A stretch of 43,798 nucleotides of DNA from Clostridia bacterium (GTDB lineage Bacteria > Bacillota > Clostridia > Oscillospirales > CAG-272). The notes beneath the pieces were generated by a model. It made no database searches and had not been told where the DNA came from. It saw nothing but the letters and a program-made list of their open reading frames with translations. How positions within the stretch are numbered: the stretch's first letter is position 1; every line of letters starts with the position of its first letter. The translations under genes and the position numbers were made by a program. Location of the stretch: contig JAFTJZ010000024.1 of assembly GCA_017456145.1 (NCBI GenBank), forward strand, positions 1 to 43,798, read 5' to 3'. Of this stretch, positions 10,973-31,645 are shown one piece after another.

Positions 10973-11767
10973 TTACGCTCTCTCCGTTCCGATAAACCCG
11001 ACGCGCATAAAGTTCTCCGGTTGGCGGCGGATGATATAATCAATGTAGGATGCCATCATTTTTGCCGTCAACAGGTAGCCTGCCGGATTCATGTGACCAC
11101 CAAGGAAGAAATTGCGATAAAATTCCGTATCGTACGCGGGCGCGTATTGCCGCAGATCGATGACGTGCGTGCGATCCTCTCCAAAAAATTCCGCCAAGGC
11201 GTACATAAGACGTGCGTGCTCATCGGCACGTGCCTCTCGTGCAGGAGTGTTCTGCGGTGTTGATGGAATGGTCACAAGAAAGAAGTGCGCACCCTTTTGC
11301 AGCTCGGCATAGCGCTGAATGATCTGCGCGTAGTACCCCGCAAAGGTCGGCTTGTTTTGCTGCCAGTTCTCGCGGCAAATGTCATCGGTCGATCCCATGG
11401 GGAAGGTCATGTTGTTGAGCACGTCGTTGACACCCAGCGCAATGATATATGCGTTTGCCGCCGACTCGGCAGACCAATATCCGTTCGCCTCGGCAAAGCG
11501 AAGGCAGTATTCGGCAGCCGACATACCGCCGCGCGAGAAATTGTATACCTTGCTGCCGGCCATGCGACCGAGATGCTGTCCCCAGGAATGGTCGAACATA
11601 TCGTGGTAGGTTTTGACACCGTCTGCATTGACGTCCTCAAATTCGCCGGAGGACAGGCTGTCTCCCACACAGGCAATGGTGCGGAAAATTCCCGTCATGC
11701 CGCCGTCGGTGACAAGACGATCAAGCGGGCGCTCGTCAGGCGAGAGATAATAATCGGTGATCTTCAT
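10973..11767 (-). CDS. SGNH/GDSL hydrolase
   Basis: 264 residues, no signal peptide or membrane helix, so probably cytoplasmic. The block I motif IACVGDSLSSG holds the nucleophile Ser37. The oxyanion Gly is in YNFSRGGMSA, the Asn block is ALGVNDVL, and His225 is in GGHMNPAGY. The Asp usually three residues before that His is absent (FLGGH), which occurs in some SGNH members. It probably removes acyl (often acetyl) groups from a small substrate; given its neighbours, a carbohydrate ester is a reasonable guess. It lies 25 bp after the ROK regulator with GGAG upstream of ATG 11767, so the two are co-transcribed. This places it in the sugar locus rather than with ftsK. Confidence 0.85.
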   Translation of the reverse strand: MKITDYYLSPDERPLDRLVTDGGMTGIFRTIACVGDSLSSGEFEDVNADGVKTYHDMFDHSWGQHLGRMAGSKVYNFSRGGMSAAEYCLRFAEANGYWSAESAANAYIIALGVNDVLNNMTFPMGSTDDICRENWQQNKPTFAGYYAQIIQRYAELQKGAHFFLVTIPSTPQNTPAREARADEHARLMYALAEFFGEDRTHVIDLRQYAPAYDTEFYRNFFLGGHMNPAGYLLTAKMMASYIDYIIRRQPENFMRVGFIGTERA

Positions 11768-11792: not shown

Positions 11793-12941
11793 TTATTTTA
11801 ATTTCTGTGTAAAATAAGCCTCGAAAATGGCGTCGGCGCTGGAGGAGAGGGTGGCGTTTTCCTGCATAAGTGCGGGCAGGACGTGTACGGTCTGAATCCC
11901 TGCAACGGTGGAATGCGCGCGGATCCGTTGCTCGATTTTCCCAAAGAGCAGCTCCGACTTGTAATTCAATTCTCCGTACAGAACGATTGCCTCGGGGTTG
12001 ATCAGGTTGACGTAATTCACCAGTGCATGGGAGAGTATTTGTGCGATGTAGTCAAGGATCTCCAGCGCGGCAGCATCCCCCGCCTCGGCACGATCGACCA
12101 CGGTGTGATAATCGGCAAAGTTGAAATGGTGCTTGAGAGAATCCATCGCAATATACCGTTCCAGACACCCGCGGTTGCCGCAGGCGCAGGGAATCCCCTC
12201 CCGCTCAACCGAGGTGTGACCCAGCTCGCCCGCGTAACCGCCGTGTCCGCGGTACAGCCTGCCGTCCGAAAAGAACGCCGATCCGATGCCGTCGGTCACC
12301 ACGATGAAGATCCAATTTTGCAATGTCCCGCGGCGCAGACTCCGCTCATGCATGGCGAGAAGTGTTGCGTTGTTGTCCAGATAGACGGGCAGATCGCTCA
12401 TGCGTTCCAGATGCTCTCGCACCGAAAAGCCGTGGAACAGTGACAGTCCCGGCGGGGTGTGGATGATACCCTTCCTGTAATCCAGGGGGCCGGGGGCACT
12501 GACGCCGATGCCGATCAGCTTTTCCTTTTCGATCTCGTGCGCGGCACACATCTCGGTTGCGGCGTGGTAAAGAGCATCAAGAGCAGAGGCGGGTGAGGTG
12601 AAATCGGCGGTGGAGAAGGTGCGGCTGTCCACAATGCTGTAGGCGAGATTGACCAAACACACCGACAGCCGCCGACGGTGCAGGGCAATTCCCATCGCGT
12701 AGCGATAATCGGCGACGATGGCAAGAGAGGTGCGAGGACGTCCTACGCCCGCGCCTTCGGCGATGCCCGTTTCCACAAGCGCACCCTTGGCAATCAGATC
12801 TCCGACTATGGAGGTCACGGTTGCCTTGGAAAGTCCCGAGGTCTGGGCAAGCTGGGCGCGGGACAGCGCACCGTTGCGCAGACATTCATACAAAAGGGCG
12901 GTGTTGTTGCTTTTGATGCTTTTGGTGTCGGATTTTTTCAT
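11793..12941 (-). CDS. ROK-family transcriptional regulator (XylR/NagC type)
   Basis: 382 residues. The start is ATG 12941, with AAGGAG 8 nt upstream; the open frame reaches 13025 without a site. The N-terminal winged helix-turn-helix (LSRAQLAQTSGLSKATVTSIVGDLI) is followed by the ROK sugar-kinase-like domain. This includes DGIGSAFF and the zinc site GIPCACGNRGCLERY. Such proteins are cytoplasmic repressors released by a sugar or sugar phosphate. The gene is divergent from the glycyl radical operon and shares a 156-bp intergenic region with two facing consensus promoters. A TTTGTT...AACTAA operator-like site overlies the start of the divergent transcript, and a near copy lies upstream of the UroD-family gene. 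The inducer is unknown; XylR-like operator shape and a sedoheptulokinase-like kinase point to a ketose or related compound. Confidence 0.9.
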   Translation of the reverse strand: MKKSDTKSIKSNNTALLYECLRNGALSRAQLAQTSGLSKATVTSIVGDLIAKGALVETGIAEGAGVGRPRTSLAIVADYRYAMGIALHRRRLSVCLVNLAYSIVDSRTFSTADFTSPASALDALYHAATEMCAAHEIEKEKLIGIGVSAPGPLDYRKGIIHTPPGLSLFHGFSVREHLERMSDLPVYLDNNATLLAMHERSLRRGTLQNWIFIVVTDGIGSAFFSDGRLYRGHGGYAGELGHTSVEREGIPCACGNRGCLERYIAMDSLKHHFNFADYHTVVDRAEAGDAAALEILDYIAQILSHALVNYVNLINPEAIVLYGELNYKSELLFGKIEQRIRAHSTVAGIQTVHVLPALMQENATLSSSADAIFEAYFTQKLK

Positions 12942-12996
12942 ACGGTAGTCTCCTTTTTCGGGGGATCGTGGGGGGCGCGGAGCGCTTTCCTTTTCT

Positions 12997-13025
12997 ATTG
13001 TACCATTTTTTTTGCAAAATGTCAA
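12997..13025 (-). promoter_or_regulatory. Promoter of the ROK-SGNH unit
   Basis: The minus strand reads TTGACA (13025-13020), 17 nt, TACAAT (13002-12997). Its -35 box forms an inverted pair (TGTCAA-7 nt-TTGACA) with the -35 box of the divergent promoter. Confidence 0.85.
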
Positions 13026-13032
13026 ATCCTAC

Positions 13033-13061
13033 TTGACAAAATGGGAAAAATATGCTAAAAT
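13033..13061 (+). promoter_or_regulatory. Promoter of the glycyl radical operon
   Basis: TTGACA (13033-13038), 17 nt, TAAAAT (13056-13061). It faces away from the ROK promoter, and the candidate operator starts 3 bp after its -10 box. Confidence 0.85.
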
Positions 13062-13064
13062 TTG

Positions 13065-13086
13065 TTTGTTTGAATGTCGAACTAAT
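13065..13086 (+). promoter_or_regulatory. Candidate ROK operator, copy 1
   Basis: Half-sites TTTGTT and AACTAA separated by 9 nt, with flanking TG and CG, overlap the expected transcription start. It resembles the XylR operator half-site TTAGTT/AACTAA as I recall it. It matches copy 2 (29574-29595) at 16 of 22 positions, all mismatches but one lying in the middle. Confidence 0.65.
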
Positions 13087-13097
13087 GCGGAGGGCGT

Positions 13098-13814
13098 ATG
13101 CATCTCAATATTTTCGGAAAAGGGTTCAATTATTCGCAGGACGGACCGGGCAATCGGCTGGTCTATCATCTGTCCGGCTGTCATCTGCGCTGTCCGTGGT
13201 GCTCCAACCCCGAGGGATTGTTTGGCAGCGGCAGGGTGGTGGAGGCACAGGAGATTGTCCGCGAGGTCCTCTCGGCACGTCCCATGTTCTTTGACGGGGG
13301 TGGCGTGACGTTTACGGGCGGAGAGTGCACACTGCAGGCTGCGGCGCTGCTTTTTGTGATCGGGCAGCTCAAGGCAGCGGGGGTCAATGTCGCTATGGAG
13401 TCCAATGCGGCGACGAAGGATTTTCTCTCCCTTGCAAGCGTGTGCGATATCGTGATCGCCGACTACAAGCATCCCGATGCAACGATACTTCGCACAGTGA
13501 CGGGCGGAGACTTAGCTTTGATCGAGTCAAATCTTTCTTCCCTGATCGGGCAGCGTTTCGTTCACCTTCGCATTCCTCTTGTCCACGCGTTCAACGACGA
13601 CGATGCAGCCATTGACGGTTTTGTCCGTTTTTTCTCGCAGCTGCCGCGGGAGCGTTATGACGTGGAGATTTTAAGCTATCATGAATACGGGAAAGAAAAG
13701 TGGCATACATGCAGCAAGGAATACACGGTCACCGACGGGTATGTCGAGCCGCAACGGATTCAAGCACTGACGGCGACCTTGCGCGAGGCGGGGGTCCGCG
13801 TCATCAAAACATAA
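13098..13814 (+). CDS. Glycyl radical enzyme activating enzyme (radical SAM), short form
   Basis: 238 residues. It uses S-adenosylmethionine and a [4Fe-4S] cluster to install the glycyl radical on its partner, the next gene. The cluster motif is CHLRCPWC (CX3CX2C, near residue 28), followed by SNPEG and then GGGVTFTGGE. WCSNPE and GGGVTxxGGE are typical of activases for dehydratase-type glycyl radical enzymes. The extra ferredoxin-like segment with two more cysteine clusters, usual between those motifs, is missing, so only about 45 residues separate them. Start ATG 13098 follows GGAGG. It ends 23 bp before the radical enzyme gene, so the two form one operon under the promoter at 13033. Confidence 0.93.
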   Translation: MHLNIFGKGFNYSQDGPGNRLVYHLSGCHLRCPWCSNPEGLFGSGRVVEAQEIVREVLSARPMFFDGGGVTFTGGECTLQAAALLFVIGQLKAAGVNVAMESNAATKDFLSLASVCDIVIADYKHPDATILRTVTGGDLALIESNLSSLIGQRFVHLRIPLVHAFNDDDAAIDGFVRFFSQLPRERYDVEILSYHEYGKEKWHTCSKEYTVTDGYVEPQRIQALTATLREAGVRVIKT

Positions 13815-13837
13815 ATTCAATTTCGGAGGAATCATCC

Positions 13838-16201
13838 ATGAAACATATCGGAAACGCACAAAAAATTACCACACTTGCCAAGGAGCTCTTTCGTGAGGAG
13901 CGCGCGACCATGCGCCTTGACGGATGGTTCTATATTAAGGAAATACGTCGCGATTCGGATGCGGCACTGTCCCATCTGCCTCCCGTTGAGAAGGCGGGCG
14001 AGCAGCTGAAGATCATCGCGGAAAAACTGCCGATCTCGATCAGCCAATACGCCGTGTTTGCGGGAACCCAGCGAGATGCCTTTGCCCGCAGCTATGCATT
14101 GATCAATCCCTCTTTCCGCGTGGAGGGCTTTTCCGGCTATTGCGATCCCACCGCGGTTTATGGGGACATTGAGCCGAACGAGGAAATTTCTGCTGAGCGT
14201 ATTGCCGCCATGCAGGAATACGACAAGCAAACCGATTTTGTCACCTCTCTTGCCGACGTATATAAAAAATATGAAGAATACACCGACGAGGTGGAGTTTT
14301 TCGTCGAGCAGGTAACAGGACACGTGATCCCGGATATGCGTCCCGCACTCAAGCACGGCGTGGAGTATCTGATGCAGACACTGCGTGACAAGGCGAACGA
14401 GGGCAGTGAGAAACAGCAGTCGCATCGCCGCGGTATGCTGGCGTCTCTGGAGGCGGTGCTCATCCTCGCCCGTCGCTATCGTGCGTTGGCGCGCAAGCTG
14501 GCTGCCGATGCGGAACATGAAGAGGACAAGGCGCGTTACGGTCGCATTGCCGATGCGCTGGAGCGTGTTCCCGCCAAGGGCGCGACCAATCTTTTCGAGG
14601 CCATTCAGAGCTTTATGCTGCTTTGGCAGACCATGTGCATCGAGCAAGCGCCCAACCCCTTTGCGTTTTCCGTTGGAAACGCCGACCGCATTTTTGAGCC
14701 TTACCGTGCCATGGAGGCGCTTGGACGTGACGATACGGCTGCGCTGCTCAAGCATCTCTTGGTGTTTTATAACGTCGGCGACCGCAGCTGGGCGATCTCG
14801 CAGAATCTGATCATCGGCGGCCGCGACGTCGACGGAAACGATCTGACCAATCCGACCTCGCTGGCGCTCTTTGATGCATATTTTGATATGAATTTGCCGC
14901 AGCCGATTTTGTCGGTCAAGCTGCACAAGAACACGCCCGATGTCATTTACGAGGAGATGGGACGTTTCTTCTTCACCCCCGGCTGCCTGACGCCCTCGCT
15001 GTTTAACGATGATGCCATGTTTGAGGTGCTCATCCGCGCAGGCGTGGCGAGGGAGGATCTGCCCGATTATTCCATCGCGGGCTGCCAGGAGCCGCTGATC
15101 ATGGGGCGGGACAGTGGCAACACCACCAACTCCTGGCTCAATCTGGGCAAGGTGCTGGAGCTGACGCTGACGGGCGGCATCAGTGCCATCAGCGGCAAGG
15201 AGATCGGCAAGACCGAGGAAATTCCCGCCAAAGAGCTGCTGCAGACTATTCGGGAGCAGTTTTATGCGCGACTGGAAAAGACGGTCGCGAATATGACCGA
15301 TGTGGCCAACGGCGCGTCGGTGGCGCTGTCGAATCTGCCTGTGCCCATGCTGTCCACGCTGATGGGCGGCATTGAGAGCGGCTACGATATGCGCGACGCA
15401 ACCGATTGCGGCACCAAGTATCACGGCTCCGGCTGCCTGATCCACGGCAGCGCGGTCGTCGCGGACAGTTTCATCGCCATCGACCACTATCTGAAGGACC
15501 ATCCCGACGGCGCACAACGACTGCTCGCGGCACTGAAAAATAATTTTGAGGGGGAGGAGGAGCTGCGTCAGACGCTGCTCTCCTATCCGAAGTTCGGTAA
15601 CAATGACGACGAGGCCGATACCGAATGTGCCTCTCTCTGCGCCCGTGTTGCGGATATGGTACGCGCCGGAAAGAACTATCTGGGTTATCCCTTCCGCCCC
15701 GATTTCAGCACGCCATCCACCCATCTTTTGTATGGCTACTGGGTAGGTGCGCTGCCCGACGGCAGACGTGCACGGGAAATGCTCAACTACGGCATCGACC
15801 CGCTGCACGGTGACGCCAATCTGGGGCTGGGATTCCGCACGCTGTCCTCCATGAAGCTGCCTCACGACAAAATGTGCGGGGGCGAGGCTTGCCACCTTGG
15901 CATCGATCCCAAATATTTCCGCGGTGAGACGTTTGCCGAGCGGGGAATGGAGTTCAAGAGAAAGGTTATGACACCCCTTTTCTTCAATCCAATGGCAACC
16001 GACATCCCTCCCTTCTACGTTTATCTCAATATTACCACGCCCGAAATTCTCCGCAAGGTGCTGGCGAATCCCAAAAAGTACGCGCCCGGCGGCGTGTATA
16101 TCATGCGCATCCACGGTACCTTCGTCAATTTCCTTGACCTCTCACCTGCAATTCAGCAGGACATCATCACCCGCCTTGATCCCGCATCGACGGCGTGTTG
16201 A
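13838..16201 (+). CDS. Glycyl radical enzyme of unknown substrate
   Basis: 787 residues from ATG 13838 (GGAGGA 13825-13830). The N-terminal PFL-like domain carries the thiyl radical site SIAGCQEP: Cys416 with Glu418, the Cys-x-Glu pattern of C-O lyases and dehydratases rather than the Cys-Cys of pyruvate formate-lyase. The C-terminal radical loop is MRIHGTFVNF with Gly760, 27 residues from the end as expected. It departs from the usual RV(S/A)GY by having His before and Thr after the Gly. The enzyme should be an oxygen-sensitive cytoplasmic homodimer. Its neighbours are a dedicated activase, a ROK regulator, a sedoheptulokinase-like kinase and mannose-6-phosphate isomerase. The likely substrate is therefore a sugar, polyol, anhydro-sugar or a phosphate of one; YbiW and PflD of E. 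coli are reported to act on anhydrohexitol phosphates. The exact reaction cannot be assigned. Confidence 0.93.
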   Translation: MKHIGNAQKITTLAKELFREERATMRLDGWFYIKEIRRDSDAALSHLPPVEKAGEQLKIIAEKLPISISQYAVFAGTQRDAFARSYALINPSFRVEGFSGYCDPTAVYGDIEPNEEISAERIAAMQEYDKQTDFVTSLADVYKKYEEYTDEVEFFVEQVTGHVIPDMRPALKHGVEYLMQTLRDKANEGSEKQQSHRRGMLASLEAVLILARRYRALARKLAADAEHEEDKARYGRIADALERVPAKGATNLFEAIQSFMLLWQTMCIEQAPNPFAFSVGNADRIFEPYRAMEALGRDDTAALLKHLLVFYNVGDRSWAISQNLIIGGRDVDGNDLTNPTSLALFDAYFDMNLPQPILSVKLHKNTPDVIYEEMGRFFFTPGCLTPSLFNDDAMFEVLIRAGVAREDLPDYSIAGCQEPLIMGRDSGNTTNSWLNLGKVLELTLTGGISAISGKEIGKTEEIPAKELLQTIREQFYARLEKTVANMTDVANGASVALSNLPVPMLSTLMGGIESGYDMRDATDCGTKYHGSGCLIHGSAVVADSFIAIDHYLKDHPDGAQRLLAALKNNFEGEEELRQTLLSYPKFGNNDDEADTECASLCARVADMVRAGKNYLGYPFRPDFSTPSTHLLYGYWVGALPDGRRAREMLNYGIDPLHGDANLGLGFRTLSSMKLPHDKMCGGEACHLGIDPKYFRGETFAERGMEFKRKVMTPLFFNPMATDIPPFYVYLNITTPEILRKVLANPKKYAPGGVYIMRIHGTFVNFLDLSPAIQQDIITRLDPASTAC

Positions 16202-16230
16202 GGTAAGACGAGGGGTACGAGGGGGGACGA

Positions 16231-16382
16231 GGGGCTCTGCCCCTGACCCCCGCCAAAGAACCTTTTGAAAAAAGGTTCTTTGGAATCTCCAAAACCATTT
16301 GAAAAATGATTGGCTTAATTTTTAACGGTTCTGTTCTGACCAAACGGACAGCATCGCCCATGTGGGGCCCCTTCCCCACAAG
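16231..16382 (+). repeat. R1 intergenic repeat, copy C
   Basis: GGGGCTCTGCCCC stem, then the hairpin AAAGAACCTTTT/AAAAGGTTCTTT, then CTCCAAAACCATTTG, closing with CATGTGGGGCCCC and CCCCACAAG. It begins 30 bp after the glycyl radical enzyme stop, in the same sense, preceded by short ACGAGGGG repeats. Confidence 0.75.
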
Positions 16383-16419
16383 ATAAGTGAAAAATTAGTT
16401 TTTCATTGGTGGGAACCCC

Positions 16420-16845
16420 GATCTTTATCAAATTCCAAATGACCGTTTCGATCTCAAGATAATATATTCCTTACCCAACTCCACCAAGTTCCAAATGACC
16501 ACTTCCAACCCATCTCGAGGCGGTGCCGAAGAGATGGAGGAATGATTGAAACCTTCCCCCTCGCGCGCGACTCAGCAACCGCAAGGTTGCGTTAGCGCGC
16601 AGCAGCAGGGGGATGTATAAGGGGGCAAGCCCCCTTATACACGCTTTTTTTGGTTCGTTTTTTTGGGGTGTGCCAAAAAAATGAACATAAACTAATTATA
16701 GTTAGAAAGCTGTGTTCGCACAAACTTAATTCAATTTGGAATTTCAACAACCCGCGGGAGGGGAACCCCCTCCCCTACAGAGTTTTAGCAAAATCCCATA
16801 TAACCGTTTCGATCTCAAGATAATATATTCCCTACCCAAATCCTC
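16420..16845. repeat. Direct repeat pair bracketing an inserted segment
   Basis: A 41-bp sequence starting ACCGTTTCGATCTCAAGATA at 16442 recurs at 16803 with 39 of 41 matches. Weaker similarity extends about 20 bp further upstream of each. The two are 361 bp apart and enclose the R2 element. The second lies just before the ribosome binding site of the kinase gene. The pattern suggests an insertion or duplication of the kinase leader. The whole interval 16202-16865 holds no gene that I can support. Confidence 0.7.
16561..16725 (+). repeat. R2 multi-hairpin element, copy 1
   Basis: In order: an outer stem GCGCGC/GCGCGC (16563-16600) enclosing an inner stem GCAACC-gcaa-GGTTGC; a perfect 12-bp stem GTATAAGGGGGC-aa-GCCCCCTTATAC (16615-16640); TTTGGTTCG; a stem TTTTTTTGG/CCAAAAAAA; then TGAACATAA and TGTTCGCACAA. 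Copy 2 (22956-23122) has the same order with different but still complementary arms. It lies upstream of the kinase gene. Confidence 0.75.
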
Positions 16846-16865
16846 CCCCAAGAAAGGACATACCC

Positions 16866-18188
16866 ATGTACCTCGGAATCGACATCGGCACCACCTCCAT
16901 CTGCGCGGTGGTCATCTCAAAGAACGGAACCCTACTTCACTCCGTCACAGAACAAAATACCTTCGGCTATGCGAACGGTGCCACCCGTATGCAAAATGCG
17001 GACGGTATTGCAAAAAAATGCCGCGAAATCTGCGACACACTCAACGCCCAATACCCCATCCAAAGCATCGGTGTCAGCGGACAGATGCACGGCATTCTCT
17101 ACGTCGATGCGGACGGCAACGCCCTATCTCCCCTCTACTCCTGGCAGGACGAGCGCGGAAATCTCCCTGCCGGTGACGGCAGCTATGCCGAGCAGCTCCG
17201 CGCACTGACCGGCTACCCGATTTCTACCGGCTACGGCTGCTGCAGTCTGTACTACGATATGAAAAATCGTGCCATTCCCGAAAATACCGCGGCTTTTTGC
17301 ACCATAGGTGACTACGTTGCCATGCAGTTGTGCGGCCGAAAAACACCGTTGCTCAACGATACCTGCGCTGCATCCCTCGGGTTGTTTGACCTTAAGGCGC
17401 GCCGCTGGGACGATGCTGCGATCCGCGCCGCCGCACTTCCTCGCCATCTTTTCCCCGAAACCACGGGGGAGGTCGCCATGCTGGGAAAGACGCCCGTCGG
17501 CGCGACCGTCTATACCTGCATCGGCGACAATCAGGCCTCGGTCTATGGCTCGGTGCGCGATGAAAATGCGTTCCTGCTCAATATCGGTACGGGCAGCCAA
17601 ATCTCTGTGGTCTCACGTCAATACGTCGCTCCCACCGTCGGTGAGGTGCGTCCGTATCTCAACGGCGCGTATCTCATTGCGGGCTGTCCCTTGTGTGGCG
17701 GCTATTCTTACCGATTGCTCAAGGACTTTTTTGCCGACGTGAACAGCGAGATCACCTACGACACCATGAACGCATGGGCTCTCCTTGCCCTGGAGGCACA
17801 GGAGAAGGGGAACTGCACGGTGCCCGACGTCCGTCCCACCTTCCGCGGAACTCGCGAGGATCCCGCCAGCCGCGCCTCAATTACCGGACTCTCGGAGACG
17901 AATCTCCGCGCACCCGCCTTGACGCTTGGCGTACTCAAAGGCATCAGCGGCGAGCTCAAGGAATTTTATACCGCCTTTTGCGCGTTACTTGGCCGACGGA
18001 CGCAGGCAGTCGGCGCGGGCAATGCCGTGCGCATGAATCCCGCTATGCGCCGCGTTCTGCGGGAGGATTTCGGCTGCGAGGTCTTCATCCCCGCCCATAC
18101 CGAGGAAGCCTCCTTTGGTGCAGCACGTGCTGCGGCGGAAACCTATACGGGCGAGAATTTCAGCTGCTGGATTCAATATCAAGCATAA
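16866..18188 (+). CDS. FGGY-family carbohydrate kinase, sedoheptulokinase-like
   Basis: 440 residues. It transfers phosphate from ATP to a sugar hydroxyl. N-terminal GIDIGTTSICAVV is the phosphate-binding loop of the FGGY/actin fold. The segments IGVSGQMHGILYVDADGN, YSWQDERG, STGYGCCSLYYDMKN and GDNQASVYGSV...LLNIGTGSQISV match what I recall of sedoheptulokinases better than xylulokinases or glycerol kinases. The substrate may still be another ketose or a polyol. AAAGGA precedes ATG 16866. The gene follows the glycyl radical enzyme in the same direction but is separated by 664 bp of repeats, and no promoter is evident there. It is tightly followed (26 bp) by the isomerase gene. It probably supplies or processes a phosphorylated intermediate of the same pathway. 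Confidence 0.85.
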   Translation: MYLGIDIGTTSICAVVISKNGTLLHSVTEQNTFGYANGATRMQNADGIAKKCREICDTLNAQYPIQSIGVSGQMHGILYVDADGNALSPLYSWQDERGNLPAGDGSYAEQLRALTGYPISTGYGCCSLYYDMKNRAIPENTAAFCTIGDYVAMQLCGRKTPLLNDTCAASLGLFDLKARRWDDAAIRAAALPRHLFPETTGEVAMLGKTPVGATVYTCIGDNQASVYGSVRDENAFLLNIGTGSQISVVSRQYVAPTVGEVRPYLNGAYLIAGCPLCGGYSYRLLKDFFADVNSEITYDTMNAWALLALEAQEKGNCTVPDVRPTFRGTREDPASRASITGLSETNLRAPALTLGVLKGISGELKEFYTAFCALLGRRTQAVGAGNAVRMNPAMRRVLREDFGCEVFIPAHTEEASFGAARAAAETYTGENFSCWIQYQA

Positions 18189-18214
18189 AGATATAAAGAA
18201 AAGAGGACTTACAC

Positions 18215-19294
18215 ATGAATAAGCAAGCATTGGTACAGAAACCGATCTTTTTTGATCGTAACCGCGTTTATCGCGTTTACACGGGGGGGATGCCCTACGT
18301 CGCGTTTTTCAATGACCCCGACGGCTATGACGTCGGTTTCGATGGCGGCGCGGACGGTAACTTCCCCGAGGAGTGGGTGGCGTCCGGCGTCAAGGCGCTC
18401 AATGAGAAAACGTTTGGCGAGCGCGATGGCGTGTCGGTCGTCAAGGGAACCGGTATTTATTTTGACGATCTGCTGACCGAATATCCCGAGGAAATGCTGG
18501 GCGGTGGGCGTTTTGATTGCTTGGTCAAGGTGCTTGACAGCGCTGTTCGTCTGCCCTTTCAGGCGCACCCCACCAAGGAATTTTCTCGCAAGCATTTCGG
18601 CAGCAACTACGGTAAAACCGAAGCTTGGCTGGTGCTTAGAACGCGTGAGAATGCCCGTATCTACTTCGGCTTTAAGGAGAAGATGACCAAGGCGGACATT
18701 GACCGCCTGGAGGAGGAGAGCGAGACGGACAAGACGGTGTTTGACGATCTGCTCTCTTACGTGGAGCCCAAGATCGGCGATGTGTTTCTGATCCGTGCAG
18801 GTATGGTTCATGCGATCGGCGCGGGTTGTACCATCCTGGAGCTGCAGGAGCCGACCGACTTTACCGTGCAGCCCGAGCGTTGGTGCGGAGATCATCATCT
18901 GAGCCCTCATGAAGAGTATCTCGGCTTGGATAAGGATATCGCGCTTGACGTGTTCGACTTCTCCCTGTACGGACCTGCCGCAACCGAAAGCGCAAGACTT
19001 CTCCCTCGCGTGGTCGAGGCGTGCGACGGCTACCGCAAGGAGGTGCTGATCAGCTACGACGACACACCCTGCTTTGCCCAGAATCGTTACACCCTGACGG
19101 GCGGTAGTATGGTGCTGGATGCAGCACCTGCGCTCTATATTTGCGTGGATGGCGAGGGTGAGATTATCGGCGAAGATTACGATATGCCCATCCGCCGCGG
19201 CAGCTACTTCTTCCTGCCGTACGCCGCCAAGGGCAAATTCACTGCCAAGGGCAGCTGCACCATCGTCGAATGCTTGCCGAGTAAGCAGGATTGA
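18215..19294 (+). CDS. manA: Mannose-6-phosphate isomerase, class I
   Basis: 359 residues, a cupin-fold zinc enzyme interconverting mannose 6-phosphate and fructose 6-phosphate. The metal ligands are visible as Gln116 and His118 in FQAHP, Glu136 in GKTEAW and His199 in AGMVHAIG. A C-terminal cupin half ends the protein. AGAGGA precedes ATG 18215, 26 bp after the kinase stop, so the two genes are co-transcribed. A strong terminator follows at 19400. The product links the locus to fructose 6-phosphate and glycolysis, and to the alpha-mannosidase encoded at 24974-28057. The family contains members with other cyclic-sugar specificities, so the substrate in this pathway could differ. Confidence 0.92.
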   Translation: MNKQALVQKPIFFDRNRVYRVYTGGMPYVAFFNDPDGYDVGFDGGADGNFPEEWVASGVKALNEKTFGERDGVSVVKGTGIYFDDLLTEYPEEMLGGGRFDCLVKVLDSAVRLPFQAHPTKEFSRKHFGSNYGKTEAWLVLRTRENARIYFGFKEKMTKADIDRLEEESETDKTVFDDLLSYVEPKIGDVFLIRAGMVHAIGAGCTILELQEPTDFTVQPERWCGDHHLSPHEEYLGLDKDIALDVFDFSLYGPAATESARLLPRVVEACDGYRKEVLISYDDTPCFAQNRYTLTGGSMVLDAAPALYICVDGEGEIIGEDYDMPIRRGSYFFLPYAAKGKFTAKGSCTIVECLPSKQD

Positions 19295-24973: not shown

Positions 24974-27900
24974 TTATCTGTAAACCAGCACCGTCTTGAT
25001 CTCGAACGGACGGAACTTAAGCTTGACCGCGCCGTCTGTCATAGGCAGCTCGGCGATCGGCTCCTCCAGCATGTTGGTCTCGACAACACGAGTTGCGCCG
25101 TTGAGTGCCAGCGTGCAGGTGGCGGCGTTGCGCTCTGCCTCGTACAGACGCAGAACATACGCGCCGGGGATGTCCTCAGCCACCTTGACCGCCTCGCAGA
25201 TGACGCCGGGGGCGGAGAGGGAAAACAACGCGGGGGCGTTGATCTTGCCGTCGATCACCACGGGCTTGTAGTTGAAGTCATAAGCGGGACGGATGACCGT
25301 TTCGGCATCAAAACCACCCATATGAGGCAGCAGAGCGTAGCTCATGTACTGCACGCCGCAGTCGGTCACGGGATCGGGACGTACACCGCCGGTCTTGAGC
25401 GTCAGACGCATATCGCTGCCCTCGCAGGAAAGACCGTATTTGCCGCTGTTGAGAATGGCGGCACCGTAACGGGTCTCGGACAGATCCGACCACTTATGGT
25501 TGCAGATCTCGAACTTGGTTGCTTCATGCGGTGTGTTGCGGGTGGTCGGGCGGTCGATGTGACCAAATTGGATCTCACTTTTGACGGTCATCGAACGCAG
25601 CGCCAGATCAAAGCCCGCCTTGAGCATATTGTGGCGTTCGTTCCAATCCAGCTTGACGTCGTAATCGATGCGGCGGGTGTTGGCGTAGAAGACCGTATCT
25701 ACCACAGCCGTCGAGCGACGAGTCAGACGATAGGTTGCGCGGATGCGGTATTCCAGCGCGCCGCAGCTGACGACCTCACAGCTTACGGGAGCGAGCACGG
25801 GGCGCATGGTGGCCAGCGCGTCGTCATCGATATCCCAGTTATCCCAGTCGCGGGGCATATCCTCGCCCAGCCACAGCGTGCCAAGCGGCGCACCGCCGTC
25901 GCGGCGCAGCTCGCGGTCAGCCTCGGTGTCGTACAGAGATGCAATGTAGCCGTTTTCGTCAAATGTGACCTGATAGTAGGGGGTGGTCAGCGTGTCACCG
26001 TCGCGGACGAAGGCGGAAATGGCGGTGTCTGTGGCTCCTGCGGACAGGGTAGCCGCTCCCATGGCGGGCAGATGAACCGCGACGGCAGTCTTAGGTGCAC
26101 CATCGGCATCGGTATAGCTCTGACACAGTGCGCCGTCAAAGGAGACCTCACCGTCAAAGGTGGCGATGGTATCGCGAGCAAAGGATAGCGTATTGTACAG
26201 AGAAACGGTGCTCGCCTTGCTTTCGGTCATTCGGGCGGCATATTCCTGCACCTTGGCGCGGGCGCGGTCGATGACCTCGTGGAACTCGGGCAGCGTGCGC
26301 TCGTAGACCTTGGAGATGCAGGTGCCGGGCAGAATGTCGTGGAATTGATTGCGCAGAAGGTGCTTGTAAAGCTCGTCGCGCTCCGAAAGATTGCTGTCAC
26401 CCGCCAGCACGGAGAACAGCTCCATGTCGTGCAGAGCAATTTCGGACAGACGGTTGCACAGCTTGACCTCGTGCATCTTGGTCAGCGTACCGCGATGCAG
26501 CTCCAGATACAGCTCGCCGTCAAAGACGGGCAGCTCATCACGGCGCTCCTCCAGCTTTTGCATGAACTTGGATACCGTGGTATTCTCGACCTCGGGCATA
26601 CCCTGAAGACCCTGCGAGCGCTTGAGAAATTCCATCATGGCGTGGGTAGGTCCGCCGCCGCCGTCACCAAAGCCGTACGACGCCAGACGCATATCGCAGG
26701 AGCGCTTGTCAATAAGATCGCGGGTCATGGAGGACAGAGAGGCAACGTCGGGAATAAAGTGGATGCGGTTGAGGTGGGAGATGACCTCCGAGCCGTCAAG
26801 GCCGCGCCATACGAAGGACTGCATGGGGAAACGGGTCAGATCGCCCCAATCGATCTTGGTGGTATAGAAGTATTTGACGCCACAGCCCTGCATGATCTGG
26901 GGGATGGTGGCATTATAGCCGAAGGTGTCGGGGAGCCAGAAGGAGTCAGAGCGGTAGTTCAGATATTTCTCGGTGAACCGTTGACCGTACAGGAACTGAC
27001 GGACCATGGCCTCGCCGCCGGTAATGTTACAGTCGCATTCGACCCACACGCCGCCGTTGGGCTCGTAACGTCCCTCGGCGACCTTTTGCTTGATGCCCTC
27101 AAAAATGTCGGGATAATATTCACGCATCCAATCCAGATGCAGGGCGCTGGACTGGACGAAGGTGTACTCGGGGTACATATCCATCAGCGTCAGCACCTGT
27201 GCGTAGGTACGGGCGCACTTGCGGATGGTTTCGTCGACTGTCCACAGCCAAGCGGTATCCATATGGGAGTGACCGATGACACCGACGTAGCCGCGAGATG
27301 CCTCGCCGCCGTTCTTTTTCAGGACGGGGGCAAAAATCTCGCGCATGGCTGCGGCGCTCTCGCGCAGCTCGTCCTCGGATGCCTGACGGGTATCCTGAAT
27401 GAGGTAGGGGAAGGCGTTCATCAGCGCCTGATGCGCCTGCATGGCGGCGAAGTTGTCCGCAGGCAGACGAGCCATCTGGAGTACGGTGGCAAGATCGAAG
27501 ACGAAATCGCGCATATCCTTGTCCATGACGACCAGCTTGATACCGCGGTAGGTATGGACGTAGGAGTCAGGGTTTGCCTCATCGGTATCATAATTTTCAA
27601 ACGGGGCGCAGCCGGGGCAGTGGTGACCTGCATAGCATTCGAAGTCGAGCGTGACCGTCTCGCCGGCACGGGCGCAGTCAGAGATGAACATGGCGCTGTG
27701 CTCACCGCCTAAGAAACGGTTTTTGGAGTTGATGATACCGGCGGGTTTACCATTCTTAAAGCAGAGGATCTCGACGGCCTCGACATCGGGGATGACACAA
27801 AGGATCTCACCGTCGGCGGTTTGTGGGACGGTGATGGAAGCATGCAGCCAGATGTTACCCCACTCATGGCCCCACCGCTGACCGGGGGTGATGGGAGACA

Positions 27901-28057
27901 TGGTGGCGGCATCAGGGGGCAGGCGGAGGTGTTCGTCGGTCTGCATGGCAGTGACGTCGGTGATGTCGGCAACGTGGCGGAACATCAGGGGGACGTAGCG
28001 GGAAAGGGTACGGTCGAATTTGCCGTAGGTGCGATTGATGTAGGATTCGTTCTTCAT
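24974..28057 (-). CDS. Alpha-mannosidase, glycoside hydrolase family 38
   Basis: 1027 residues, a retaining exo-alpha-mannosidase of the bacterial GH38 type, without signal peptide and so cytoplasmic. An N-terminal beta domain comes first. The catalytic (beta/alpha)7 barrel has GHSHMDTAWLWTVDETIRK (about 262-280, zinc ligands) and FWLPDTFGYNATIPQIMQG, with the nucleophile Asp near 375. The GH38 helical region contains LLRNQFHDILPGT. Beta-sandwich domains follow to the end. Start ATG 28057 has AAGGAG upstream. It would release mannose from imported mannosides. The mannose-6-phosphate isomerase in the locus at 18215 could use the product after phosphorylation. R2 copy 3 lies directly upstream in sense, and the UroD-family gene precedes it on the same strand. 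Confidence 0.94.
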   Translation of the reverse strand: MKNESYINRTYGKFDRTLSRYVPLMFRHVADITDVTAMQTDEHLRLPPDAATMSPITPGQRWGHEWGNIWLHASITVPQTADGEILCVIPDVEAVEILCFKNGKPAGIINSKNRFLGGEHSAMFISDCARAGETVTLDFECYAGHHCPGCAPFENYDTDEANPDSYVHTYRGIKLVVMDKDMRDFVFDLATVLQMARLPADNFAAMQAHQALMNAFPYLIQDTRQASEDELRESAAAMREIFAPVLKKNGGEASRGYVGVIGHSHMDTAWLWTVDETIRKCARTYAQVLTLMDMYPEYTFVQSSALHLDWMREYYPDIFEGIKQKVAEGRYEPNGGVWVECDCNITGGEAMVRQFLYGQRFTEKYLNYRSDSFWLPDTFGYNATIPQIMQGCGVKYFYTTKIDWGDLTRFPMQSFVWRGLDGSEVISHLNRIHFIPDVASLSSMTRDLIDKRSCDMRLASYGFGDGGGGPTHAMMEFLKRSQGLQGMPEVENTTVSKFMQKLEERRDELPVFDGELYLELHRGTLTKMHEVKLCNRLSEIALHDMELFSVLAGDSNLSERDELYKHLLRNQFHDILPGTCISKVYERTLPEFHEVIDRARAKVQEYAARMTESKASTVSLYNTLSFARDTIATFDGEVSFDGALCQSYTDADGAPKTAVAVHLPAMGAATLSAGATDTAISAFVRDGDTLTTPYYQVTFDENGYIASLYDTEADRELRRDGGAPLGTLWLGEDMPRDWDNWDIDDDALATMRPVLAPVSCEVVSCGALEYRIRATYRLTRRSTAVVDTVFYANTRRIDYDVKLDWNERHNMLKAGFDLALRSMTVKSEIQFGHIDRPTTRNTPHEATKFEICNHKWSDLSETRYGAAILNSGKYGLSCEGSDMRLTLKTGGVRPDPVTDCGVQYMSYALLPHMGGFDAETVIRPAYDFNYKPVVIDGKINAPALFSLSAPGVICEAVKVAEDIPGAYVLRLYEAERNAATCTLALNGATRVVETNMLEEPIAELPMTDGAVKLKFRPFEIKTVLVYR

Positions 28058-28330: not shown

Positions 28331-29479
28331 TCAAATCTCCCCCGCGTCACACTTGGCGTTGTAAGCGTCAACGTAATCGCGGACGAGCTTGATGCGCTCA
28401 ATGTTGCCCGTCGAGGACATTTCGTCGGAGATACCGAGAATCAAGCGGGGGGCGAATTTATCGATCAGCTCCTGCACGGTGTCGAGCAGCTGCTGTTCGG
28501 GGTAGATATCGTCAAAGAGAATGGCGGGGATGCCGTCGACAAGGAAGACCTCATCGCCAAGCGCCTCCTTGATCTCGTCGATGGTGACGTCGCCCTGCGG
28601 AACAGGAGTCATCGCCTCGATGCCGTCAAGGCCGCACTTGCGTGCGTATTTGAGCAGCGGCTTGCAATCGCCGTCCCAGTGGGCAAAGGTGAATTTACCT
28701 GCCTTGTGCAGCTCCTCGTTGCGGCGTATGTAAGCGGGCATGATGTATTTTTCAAATAAGCGCGGGGAGACGACACCGCCGTGGACGTTGTCGCCGTAGT
28801 TGATCCACTCCAGAGGACAGTCCTTGATGACCTCGATCATGCGCATGACGCTACCCTCGGCTGCCTCGAAAAATTCCTCCATCGTTTCGGGGAAGTCAGA
28901 AAGGCCGTAAACGGTGCCCTCGACGCCCATGATCTCGACGATGGTCTTCTGGATGGTCACGCGGGGGACGAAGATGGAGGGCAGACCCATGTTGCCCCAC
29001 TCGGCGACCATGTTGTCGTAATGCTGCTGGTTCCAGCGCCAGAGTGTGTTGTTCTCCAGCCAGATCATGACCTTCAGATCTTCCTCGGTCTTGGCGGGGA
29101 AGGTCTTGAAGTACCAGCCGCCGTTGGAGTCGTTGCTTGCCCACAGATAGGACACCGTACCGACCGGTGTTTCGATGTGGATCTCTCTTTCCATATCGGA
29201 GATGGTTTTGCTCCAGCGCTTGACCGGCTCCTTGTCGTATGCCTGAACGCAGCCGTTGAACTCGTACACGCGGGGAGAGACGTCCAGCGTGCAGTACAGA
29301 TCGTGACGGGACAGTCCGTCGTAGGGAGGCGGCAGTGTGCCGTCACGGAAAATGCGGTCGTGATACCAGCAATCGATGCGGGGCTGGAAGAGGACCTTTT
29401 TACCTGCCTTGCCGCGGATGATATCGCGGTTGAGAGAGAGAAAATCTCGTTTGCATTGCATAGCCATAATGGGGTTCAT
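28331..29479 (-). CDS. Uroporphyrinogen decarboxylase (URO-D) family protein, function unknown
   Basis: 382 residues, matching the URO-D/corrinoid methyltransferase TIM-barrel family (VEGTVYGLSDFPETMEEFFE, GDNVHGGVVSPRLFEKYIMP, FTFAHWDGDCKPLLKYARK, GIEAMTPVPQGDVTIDEIKE, RLILGISDEMSSTGNIERIK). It is not a haem-pathway HemE, which has different N-terminal motifs, and it lacks the His-x-Cys zinc motif of MtaA/MtbA-type methyltransferases (it has HWDGD). Members near glycoside genes are frequent, but their role is not established. Start ATG 29479 is favoured by AGGA 7 nt upstream; ATGs at codons 5 and 7 are alternatives. Two tandem promoters precede it. A near copy of the ROK operator follows the first -10 box, linking it to the glycyl radical operon. 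Confidence 0.8.
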   Translation of the reverse strand: MNPIMAMQCKRDFLSLNRDIIRGKAGKKVLFQPRIDCWYHDRIFRDGTLPPPYDGLSRHDLYCTLDVSPRVYEFNGCVQAYDKEPVKRWSKTISDMEREIHIETPVGTVSYLWASNDSNGGWYFKTFPAKTEEDLKVMIWLENNTLWRWNQQHYDNMVAEWGNMGLPSIFVPRVTIQKTIVEIMGVEGTVYGLSDFPETMEEFFEAAEGSVMRMIEVIKDCPLEWINYGDNVHGGVVSPRLFEKYIMPAYIRRNEELHKAGKFTFAHWDGDCKPLLKYARKCGLDGIEAMTPVPQGDVTIDEIKEALGDEVFLVDGIPAILFDDIYPEQQLLDTVQELIDKFAPRLILGISDEMSSTGNIERIKLVRDYVDAYNAKCDAGEI

Positions 29480-30163: not shown

Positions 30164-31645
30164 TCACTCTCGTTTTTGCTTTGCGTTGAAGGTCCCTTCG
30201 TATTCGCCAAGGAAATCCTCCGCGCATTTGAACATGGTGACGACGGCCTCGTCGTCTCGGAAGGCGAAGATGGCGCGCAGATTGCCGAAATAGCGATCGA
30301 TGATCTGTACCCGCAGCGCCAGCTTTTGCTCCTCGCGCCAAGCAGCTGACACGGCTGCATCGTAGAGGAATCCGTCTGTTGTGCGCACACCGCCTGTGTC
30401 GTTGGAATAGCCGAACTGCGGAAATTTACAAAATTCATTGCGGCAGAGCCCGAAGGGGAGCTCCTTTTCACCCTGCGCGTTGACGTAGCGCAGCACACCG
30501 CCATCGCCCTCAAAGGTGAAGGTAAATTCGGTAATGCCGGTGCGGTTGGTAGCGCAGAGGTAGGTCTTGCCGTTGAGCTTATCGGCAAAGGGAACGTATG
30601 CCTTGCCCGTTGCCGTCAACAGCTTGAGATCACTTGTCTGCGCGGCAAGTGCCTCCTCGGCCGCAGCGTCGCGGGGCAGGGGAGTCTCCTTCATGCGATA
30701 AACGACAAGATCCAGCAGAGGACGCAAAATAGCGTCGTAGCCCTTGGGATTGCCCTGCAGATCTGCGGTGCAGCAGAAGATGAAATCCAAGGCGGGGAAA
30801 CACAACGTCAGCTGCCCACCCATGCCGACAAAGGCAAAGCCGTCGTTCTCGCAGTGCCAGATCTGATAACCGTAACCGTGGGTGAGGACGGCAAGCCAGC
30901 CGTCTTCGTCATTGTCAACCAGCGCAGAGGTCGCCTGCTTGAGGTACGCCGCGTTCATCAACCGTTTGCCCTGCCAGATACCGCCGTTCATGACAAAACG
31001 ACCGAATGACATCATGTCCCGCGTGGTGCAGACCAGCGCACTGTCGCCCCAAGTATCGCCGTTGGGTGTTTTGAGCATGGTAGCGGTCTTGAAGGTGCCG
31101 AGATGGCGGAAAATTCGTTCGCTCAAAAAGTCGAACAGAGACATTCCCGACAACCGCTCGACCAACGCCGAGAGTACCTGGCTGCCGGCACTGTCATACT
31201 GCCAGATGGTGCGGGAGGGACGCAGCGCATTGCTGTTGTTCAGATACAGATGGGTGCGGTCGGGGTCGCCCGCAGTGAACCAAGGGGGACTGATGTGGCA
31301 CGTCTCCATCATCAGCATCTCGCGGATGGTCTGTCGCATCAGCTGTGGGGGCAGATCCTTGTCGATCTTGTCGGGGAAGTAGGAGACGATGGGGTCGTCC
31401 AGTGATAGCTTGCCGTCTTCCTCCAAAAGTCCGATGGCAATGCTGACATAGCTTTTGGTCTGTGAATACATCCGATGACAAAAATCGCGGTGGAACGGCG
31501 CCCAATAATATTCCGCGAGCAGCTGCTCTCCCTTCATCATCAGAACGCTGTGCATGGCAAGCCCCGAGCGGGCAAGGCTCCTGAAAAACTCAACCAGATG
31601 AAATGAGGATATTCCCGCCTGTTCGGGAGTGATCTTTTCGAACAT
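30164..31645 (-). CDS. Serine hydrolase, beta-lactamase/transpeptidase-like fold
   Basis: 493 residues without signal peptide, so probably cytoplasmic. The family (class C beta-lactamase-like, PF00144 type) hydrolyses esters, amides or peptides through an acyl-enzyme. Ser61 and Lys64 in SQTKS form the SxxK motif, Tyr150 in QYDSAGS is the YxS motif, and GYGYQIW with FVGMGGQ marks the third region. A C-terminal extension of about 150 residues (from about 345) looks like a lipocalin-type beta domain seen in relatives of this family. Start ATG 31645 has AAGGAGG 6 nt upstream. Its own promoter lies at 31797-31825, leaving a 145-nt leader with a GGGTCGG/CCGACCC hairpin. The substrate is unknown. 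Confidence 0.9.
   Translation of the reverse strand: MFEKITPEQAGISSFHLVEFFRSLARSGLAMHSVLMMKGEQLLAEYYWAPFHRDFCHRMYSQTKSYVSIAIGLLEEDGKLSLDDPIVSYFPDKIDKDLPPQLMRQTIREMLMMETCHISPPWFTAGDPDRTHLYLNNSNALRPSRTIWQYDSAGSQVLSALVERLSGMSLFDFLSERIFRHLGTFKTATMLKTPNGDTWGDSALVCTTRDMMSFGRFVMNGGIWQGKRLMNAAYLKQATSALVDNDEDGWLAVLTHGYGYQIWHCENDGFAFVGMGGQLTLCFPALDFIFCCTADLQGNPKGYDAILRPLLDLVVYRMKETPLPRDAAAEEALAAQTSDLKLLTATGKAYVPFADKLNGKTYLCATNRTGITEFTFTFEGDGGVLRYVNAQGEKELPFGLCRNEFCKFPQFGYSNDTGGVRTTDGFLYDAAVSAAWREEQKLALRVQIIDRYFGNLRAIFAFRDDEAVVTMFKCAEDFLGEYEGTFNAKQKRE

Follow-up and report, generated by a model that had tools for sequence, protein, structure and literature searches.

Among the closest described systems are those of anhydroglycolysis, where the glycyl radical enzymes (GREs) PflD and YbiW are the lyases of 1,5-anhydromannitol- and anhydroglucitol-6-phosphate and FSA is the aldolase downstream of both, as described in part in PMC12441222. 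In E. coli the genes of PflD and YbiW lie with fsaA or PTS genes. We analysed a contig of 43,798 nt from a Clostridia bacterium (JAFTJZ010000024.1; the whole stretch is called the window), where a gene for an oxygen-sensitive GRE lies instead with genes for a carbohydrate kinase of the FGGY family and for a cupin resembling phosphomannose isomerase (PMI). The window GRE shares with PflD and YbiW the GRE fold, a Cys-x-Glu site and a sugar-linked neighbourhood, and FSA lies beside a few of its close relatives. It differs from them in sequence (22-25% identity) and in the radical loop, which reads RVAGYS in PflD and YbiW but RIHGTF here. The recurring grouping of GRE, kinase and isomerase points to an undescribed route for breaking down a sugar-like compound. 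The module spans positions 11793-19294; all coordinates are those of the whole window and GRE residues are counted from the ATG at 13838. Its core consists of four genes:

13098..13814, plus strand: GRE activase, a radical SAM enzyme of 238 aa with CxxxCxxC from residue 28
13838 (ATG)..16201, plus strand: the GRE, 787 aa, PF02901 with E 9.7e-98
16866..18188, plus strand: FGGY carbohydrate kinase, 440 aa, PF00370 and PF02782 above cut-off
18215..19294, plus strand: divergent class I PMI-like zinc cupin, 359 aa, phmmer match to 1qwr with E 1.6e-17

Every gene that a preliminary description, made from the letters of this stretch, had placed there is at its stated position, and the residues named in it were exactly right: Cys416 and Glu418 lie mid-protein in GCQEP and Gly760 lies C-terminally in RIHGTF. 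A chance grouping is excluded by the strength of the PF02901 match and by the recurrence of the gene grouping across 84 loci. This set comprises the window, L028-L030 and L031-L110 (L025-L027 were left out, being on the same contigs as L049, L069 and L103); its genes were chosen by ORF length and cross-locus support without a gene finder, and counts based on it describe near relatives.

The window GRE did not reach the cut-off of any NCBIfam model. The best score was that of the broad PFL2-3 subfamily (241.8 bits, cut-off 678.2), the equivalog models gave at most 177.7 bits against cut-offs of 994 or more, and NF007437, which we take from its length to be the PflD model, gave 168.5 bits against 1109. 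Ranked by sequence profile, the nearest solved chains were glycerol dehydratase (491.9 bits), 1,2-propanediol dehydratase (456.4 bits), a second diol dehydratase and A. fulgidus PFL2, and identity to the nearest solved dehydratases was about 25% (the molecule name of PDB chain 9rco was taken from the structure comparison). In a draw of genomes from the same family an orthologue was present in 7 of 295, the own genome included; the other six were 61-66% identical, and among the matches listed the next stood at 31% and the remainder at 33% or less. At E 1e-150 the order-level draw gave an orthologue in 10 of 394 genomes and the phylum-level draw in 1 of 398, which was the own genome. A scan of named genomes gave 276 relatives, of which the best 80 were kept, at 60-74% identity and, according to the record titles, mostly from gut metagenome genomes with some isolates. 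In a tree of nine orthologues and 22 other GREs (L021 had no usable ORF, and ORFs were chosen by the pattern R[VI]xG[YFWT]) the orthologues formed a clade with support of 1.0, a stem of 1.68 and a mean inner depth of 0.48, separate from PflD and YbiW; the window GRE was 19-26% identical to the 22 others. By these measures the GRE is a member of an isolated subfamily. Among the open-access matches listed in a literature search no description of this subfamily was seen, and a search that included the motif RIHGTF gave a single chance match in an imaging paper.

The AlphaFold model of the enzyme has the PFL-like GRE fold. Its top structural match was A. fulgidus PFL2 (2f3o; Z 42.7, rmsd 2.7 over 730 residues), yet the two are only 24% identical and the PDB title of the latter gives no function. 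The predicted fold resembles eliminases and one decarboxylase about equally well and so names no substrate.

The GRE fingerprint is given as RVXG[FWY] in a recent paper (PMC11528403). The RIHGTF loop breaks this pattern, though the glycine is kept. Both RIHGTF and GCQEP are present in all 83 C-terminally complete orthologues of the 84-locus set (the 84th, L085, lacks its C-terminal end) and were found also in L122-L129, L122 being from the same genome as L061. The GRE cluster has 87 members, three of which are paralogues with other loops, and R[VI]xG[YFW] loops occur in three unrelated GREs of the same loci and in the other comparators. RIHGTF is thus a conserved departure of the radical loop and no sequencing slip. 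In an alignment with glycerol dehydratase, HypD, PflD and YbiW the radical-loop region of the window GRE carries a three-residue insertion, and the loop ahead of residue 315 is short. Pfam reported a PFL-like domain only; relaxing the threshold to E 0.1 brought up no second GRE domain.

Compared with glycerol dehydratase, the window GRE has an equivalent of His164 (His162), but His281, Ser282, Tyr339 and Asp447 are replaced by Phe275, Ala276, Ser321 and Thr430. His281, Ser282 and Asp447 are substrate residues of that enzyme. In three loci a second, unrelated GRE lies near the RIHGTF enzyme (L068:18580-20844, L072:7129-9195 and L079:14873-17497); that of L072 shares the operon with it and has its own activase.

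The activase gene lies directly upstream of the GRE gene in all 82 loci with at least 700 bp of upstream sequence. The window activase matches PF04055 and PF13353 above cut-off and TIGR02494 below it (152.7 bits, cut-off 174.35). It is of a short form without a cysteine-rich insert. Two forms were seen in the activase cluster of the 84 loci, the short one and one with a Cys-rich insert of 80-99 residues between CxxxCxxC and GGE; the latter accounts for 26 of 85 members, activases of neighbouring GREs among them.

The FGGY kinase has both domains of a xylulokinase and its best model is XylB (TIGR01312), but its 123.1 bits are below the cut-off of 380.25; the likeness to sedoheptulokinase named in the preliminary description is putative, no model of that enzyme having come up in the libraries used. 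In 62 of 77 loci a kinase of this family (c2) is encoded no more than 3 kb downstream of the GRE; the count is 63 with L069, where the ORF overlaps the GRE gene. When other FGGY kinases near the GRE are included, the count rises to 69 of 77 (70 with L069). The second FGGY group of these loci is mostly XylB-like with some rhamnulokinase-like members, and c2 kinases share on average 20.8% identity with the non-c2 FGGY kinases from these loci; a XylB that scores above cut-off is encoded directly upstream of the activase in L088. Relatives of the window kinase occur without a GRE as well. In 8 of 13 such loci the kinase adjoins a GH32-family protein (confirmed by Pfam in L142, L143, L144 and L148, by similarity in L140, L141, L145 and L149); one further GRE-free genome, G045, has the kinase and was left out of the 13 neighbourhoods read. 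In the kinase tree the GRE-free members are partly intermixed with the GRE-linked ones. These GH32 neighbours favour a fructose-type ketose as the kinase substrate. In L141, L142, L143, L144, L148 and L149 the kinase ORF opens with a MerR-type DNA-binding sequence (by Pfam in L142, by eye in the others), and such proteins are possible sugar-sensing kinase-regulators.

The PMI of the preliminary description proved not to be canonical. The protein is homologous to the class I ManA structure 1qwr and shares its zinc ligand set (Q116, H118, E136 and H199, kept in 27 of 27 aligned sequences). However, it scored 59.1 bits against TIGR00218 (cut-off 116.2), and Gln219 replaces the Arg of the Tyr-Arg pair of 1qwr, again in 27 of 27; this Arg has a role in class I PMI. 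A PF20511 search of the genome at E 0.001 recovered another locus only and not the module gene, so that a different PMI match exists elsewhere in the genome. The module gene is a divergent paralogue and no canonical PMI. A gene of this kind is present in 43 of 74 loci within a range that runs from 9 kb upstream to 5 kb downstream of the GRE. A sister clade has Arg in place of Gln219 in four of eight sequences. In L156 and L158 its genes come after another type of GRE, separated from it by a single cupin gene, and one of the clade ends an iol operon in L155:2329-7955 (IolG, IolD and IolE above cut-offs) and, by similarity, in L159:63-5671, where it may stand in for IolB. The association of PMI-like genes with at least two GRE types supports a link between GRE metabolites and sugar isomerases. 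In these stretches (L156:3-3957 and L158:6404-11420) the other GRE type has an RVTGFT loop and no [AGS]C-x-E match.

Many loci consist of the activase, GRE, kinase and PMI-like genes alone, in this order. The order varies, the PMI-like gene preceding the kinase gene in L127-L129 and being divergent in L123. Some loci, among them L088, L091, L094 and L108, have in addition a sugar ABC importer, dehydrogenases, a XylB-like kinase and a GntR regulator (transporter and regulator labels were assigned from sequence by the analyst). L098 lacks both kinase and PMI-like gene; there the GRE is followed by a protein resembling D-lyxose/D-mannose isomerase (258.3 bits, cut-off 350), and a SIS protein and a ROK-cluster protein are likewise encoded downstream. 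Unlike glycerol and 1,2-propanediol dehydratases, the RIHGTF GRE has no constant aldehyde or alcohol dehydrogenase partner. Dehydrogenase clusters occur in five loci each at most, and the product is therefore probably taken by the kinase and the isomerase.

Across 80 chosen genomes a PMI-like protein above 500 bits was found in 11 of the 15 that have the GRE and in none of the 65 that lack it; a kinase above 400 bits was found in all 15 and in 14 of the 65 (Fisher p 1.3e-10 and 1.2e-8, kinship ignored). The query alignments were built from GRE-linked members and included four of the 11 PMI-like sequences. In G314 the PMI-like gene is on a different contig from the GRE gene, so that the link is not merely one of neighbourhood. 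The preliminary description had joined kinase and isomerase to the GRE and had treated the latter as distinct from characterised enzymes. Both ideas were borne out, by the conserved neighbourhoods, the shared occurrence across genomes and a clade that holds no characterised GRE. Taken together, the isolation of the GRE and the conservation of its partners give good support to its view of an uncharacterised radical step in sugar metabolism, that is, to an uncharacterised GRE in a sugar operon.

What this enzyme does can be said only tentatively. The reading we put foremost, while granting it somewhat less than an even chance, is that of a radical C-O lyase in a pathway at the level of fructose or mannose, with phosphorylation and isomerisation after the radical step. 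The catalytic residues, the GRE fold and the closeness in sequence to glycerol and propanediol dehydratases would suit such an activity. The activase would place a radical on Gly760, from where it would pass to Cys416; Glu418 would serve as a general acid or base, and a hydrogen next to a hydroxyl would be abstracted and the neighbouring C-O bond broken, as in other GRE eliminases. We infer the cleavage itself, the substrate and the order of steps. With less certainty, the substrate might be a small unphosphorylated polyol, anhydro-sugar or glycoside and the product a monosaccharide of the fructose or mannose type, possibly deoxy, which the PMI-like cupin might interconvert between aldose and ketose before the FGGY kinase phosphorylates it. 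Phosphorylation probably follows the radical step. The phosphorylated product would then enter hexose-phosphate metabolism, perhaps through an FSA-type aldolase in some relatives, and the ROK protein would probably repress the operon until the sugar is present. A more specific proposal, which we hold to be doubtful, is an analogue of anhydroglycolysis that begins with the radical step and operates in gut Clostridia, in which a GRE with a fingerprint-breaking loop would take the first committed step on a free hexitol, an anhydrohexitol or a fructose or mannose conjugate, and isomerase and kinase would follow.

Several observations stand in the way of a simple account. A Cys-x-Glu site occurs in GRE eliminases and arylacetate decarboxylases alike. 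Sequence scores are closer to the dehydratases, but in fold the eliminases and the arylacetate decarboxylase 7e7l tie at Z 38.5, and this tie slightly lowered our confidence in the foremost reading. There is no one product that accounts for kinase, PMI and FSA alike. A 1-deoxyketose would go with the kinase and FSA; the kinase and PMI would call for an ordinary hexose, which GREs do not usually make. FSA was found in the neighbourhood of the module in 6 of 74 loci, never together with the PMI-like gene. At genome level (TIGR00875, E 1e-20) it was not enriched (7 of 15 genomes with the GRE, 30 of 65 without), nor was it found in the own genome, a draft assembly with completeness of 95.38 and contamination of 7.49. 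GH38 was present in 12 of 15 genomes with the GRE and 42 of 65 without, and in 11 copies in the own genome. These controls indicate that neither the aldolase nor the mannosidase defines the pathway.

The order of events might be reversed, with the kinase phosphorylating an anhydro-sugar or other sugar and the GRE opening or dehydrating the phosphate in the manner of YbiW and PflD. This is unlikely in our view, though it has points in its favour. Of the structural matches, these two are the sugar GREs (their PDB titles name AM6P and AG6P), YbiW also has Thr at the position of Asp447 of glycerol dehydratase, the operons of L063, L064 and L105 include FSA, which is encoded close by in L088, L091 and L108 as well, and a GldA-type gene lies downstream in L094. 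However, PflD (25.2% identity) and YbiW (22.5%) are no closer than glycerol dehydratase (25.9%), the distribution of FSA is as described above, and the kinase belongs to a ketose-kinase family with relatives beside GH32. Alternatively, kinase and isomerase could recycle fructose or mannose freed from a conjugate while the GRE degrades the polyol or acid aglycone half. Glycosidases near single loci speak for this. The GRE operons of L049, L077 and L092 contain GH32 genes, and in L097 one is found three genes further down from the GRE (partly by similarity); DUF2961, which we take to be of the GH172 type, is encoded in L049 and by similarity in L069, a GH38 protein is encoded in the window and by eye in L029 and L098, and a GH2-type protein in L129. 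Such a division of duties is nevertheless rather improbable, as glycosidases are absent from the operon in the majority of the 84 loci and GH38 is common in any case.

We give still less weight to a branch of cyclitol or inositol breakdown in which the PMI-like cupin acts on a deoxy-sugar as IolB does. The sister genes within iol operons, and the PfkB kinase and class II aldolase that follow GRE and kinase in L072, speak for it. Against this, the iol-linked proteins belong to the other clade (288-297 bits, as compared with more than 500), iol genes do not regularly accompany the RIHGTF GRE, and the L072 kinase is best matched as a ribokinase, below cut-off. Least probable of all is a degenerate and inactive GRE-like protein. 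The departure from RVXG[FWY] and the want of a second Pfam GRE domain would agree with it, but a defunct protein is hard to square with two motifs kept in every complete orthologue and in L122-L129 and with an activase retained alongside.

The matter is of some general interest. GREs perform key gut chemistry, such as the conversion of choline to trimethylamine and of tryptophan to skatole, and according to a review (PMC11574389) many abundant gut GREs have unknown functions. Record titles place the present subfamily both among gut Clostridia of sheep, goat, yak, buffalo, deer, horse and chicken and among cultured strains, Blautia schinkii DSM 10518 (L105) and Extibacter muris DSM 28560 (L091) being two laboratory strains with an orthologue, so that its substrate can be tested now. 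The subfamily would add a nutrient route, and RIHGTF would show how much drift the radical site and its activase can tolerate while active.

The remaining features of the window are as follows:

10973..11767, minus strand: SGNH/GDSL hydrolase beside the ROK gene, PF13472 with 54.6 bits
11793..12941, minus strand: divergent ROK-family transcriptional regulator, PF00480 above cut-off
12997..13061, no strand: imperfect inverted repeat between the ROK and activase genes, 29-nt arms, 72% complementary
16202..16865, no strand: unusually long gap between the GRE and kinase genes, with two 56-nt direct repeats inside
24974-28057 and 28331-29479, minus strand: GH38 alpha-mannosidase and URO-D-family protein, neighbours of each other
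30164-31645, minus strand: beta-lactamase-fold protein, PF00144 with 85.4 bits

Conservation with the module does not extend to the SGNH gene. Among the 84 loci it formed a cluster of its own, it had no tblastn match in six orthologous regions (L025-L030), and the de-acylation step that the preliminary description had put at the start of the pathway is therefore not supported. The ROK protein scored 153.7 bits as Mlc and 146.7 bits as NagC, both below the equivalog cut-offs, and the inverted repeat might conceivably be an operator. The PF00144 protein is perhaps an esterase or peptidase. The GH38 gene of the window is no evidence for the pathway, such genes being too common in this genome; by eye, the GRE operon of L098 also encodes URO-D proteins and a GH38-like protein. 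The direct repeats between the GRE and kinase genes (16430-16485 and 16791-16846) are 89% alike, and their 21-nt core occurs in five copies on four contigs of the genome.

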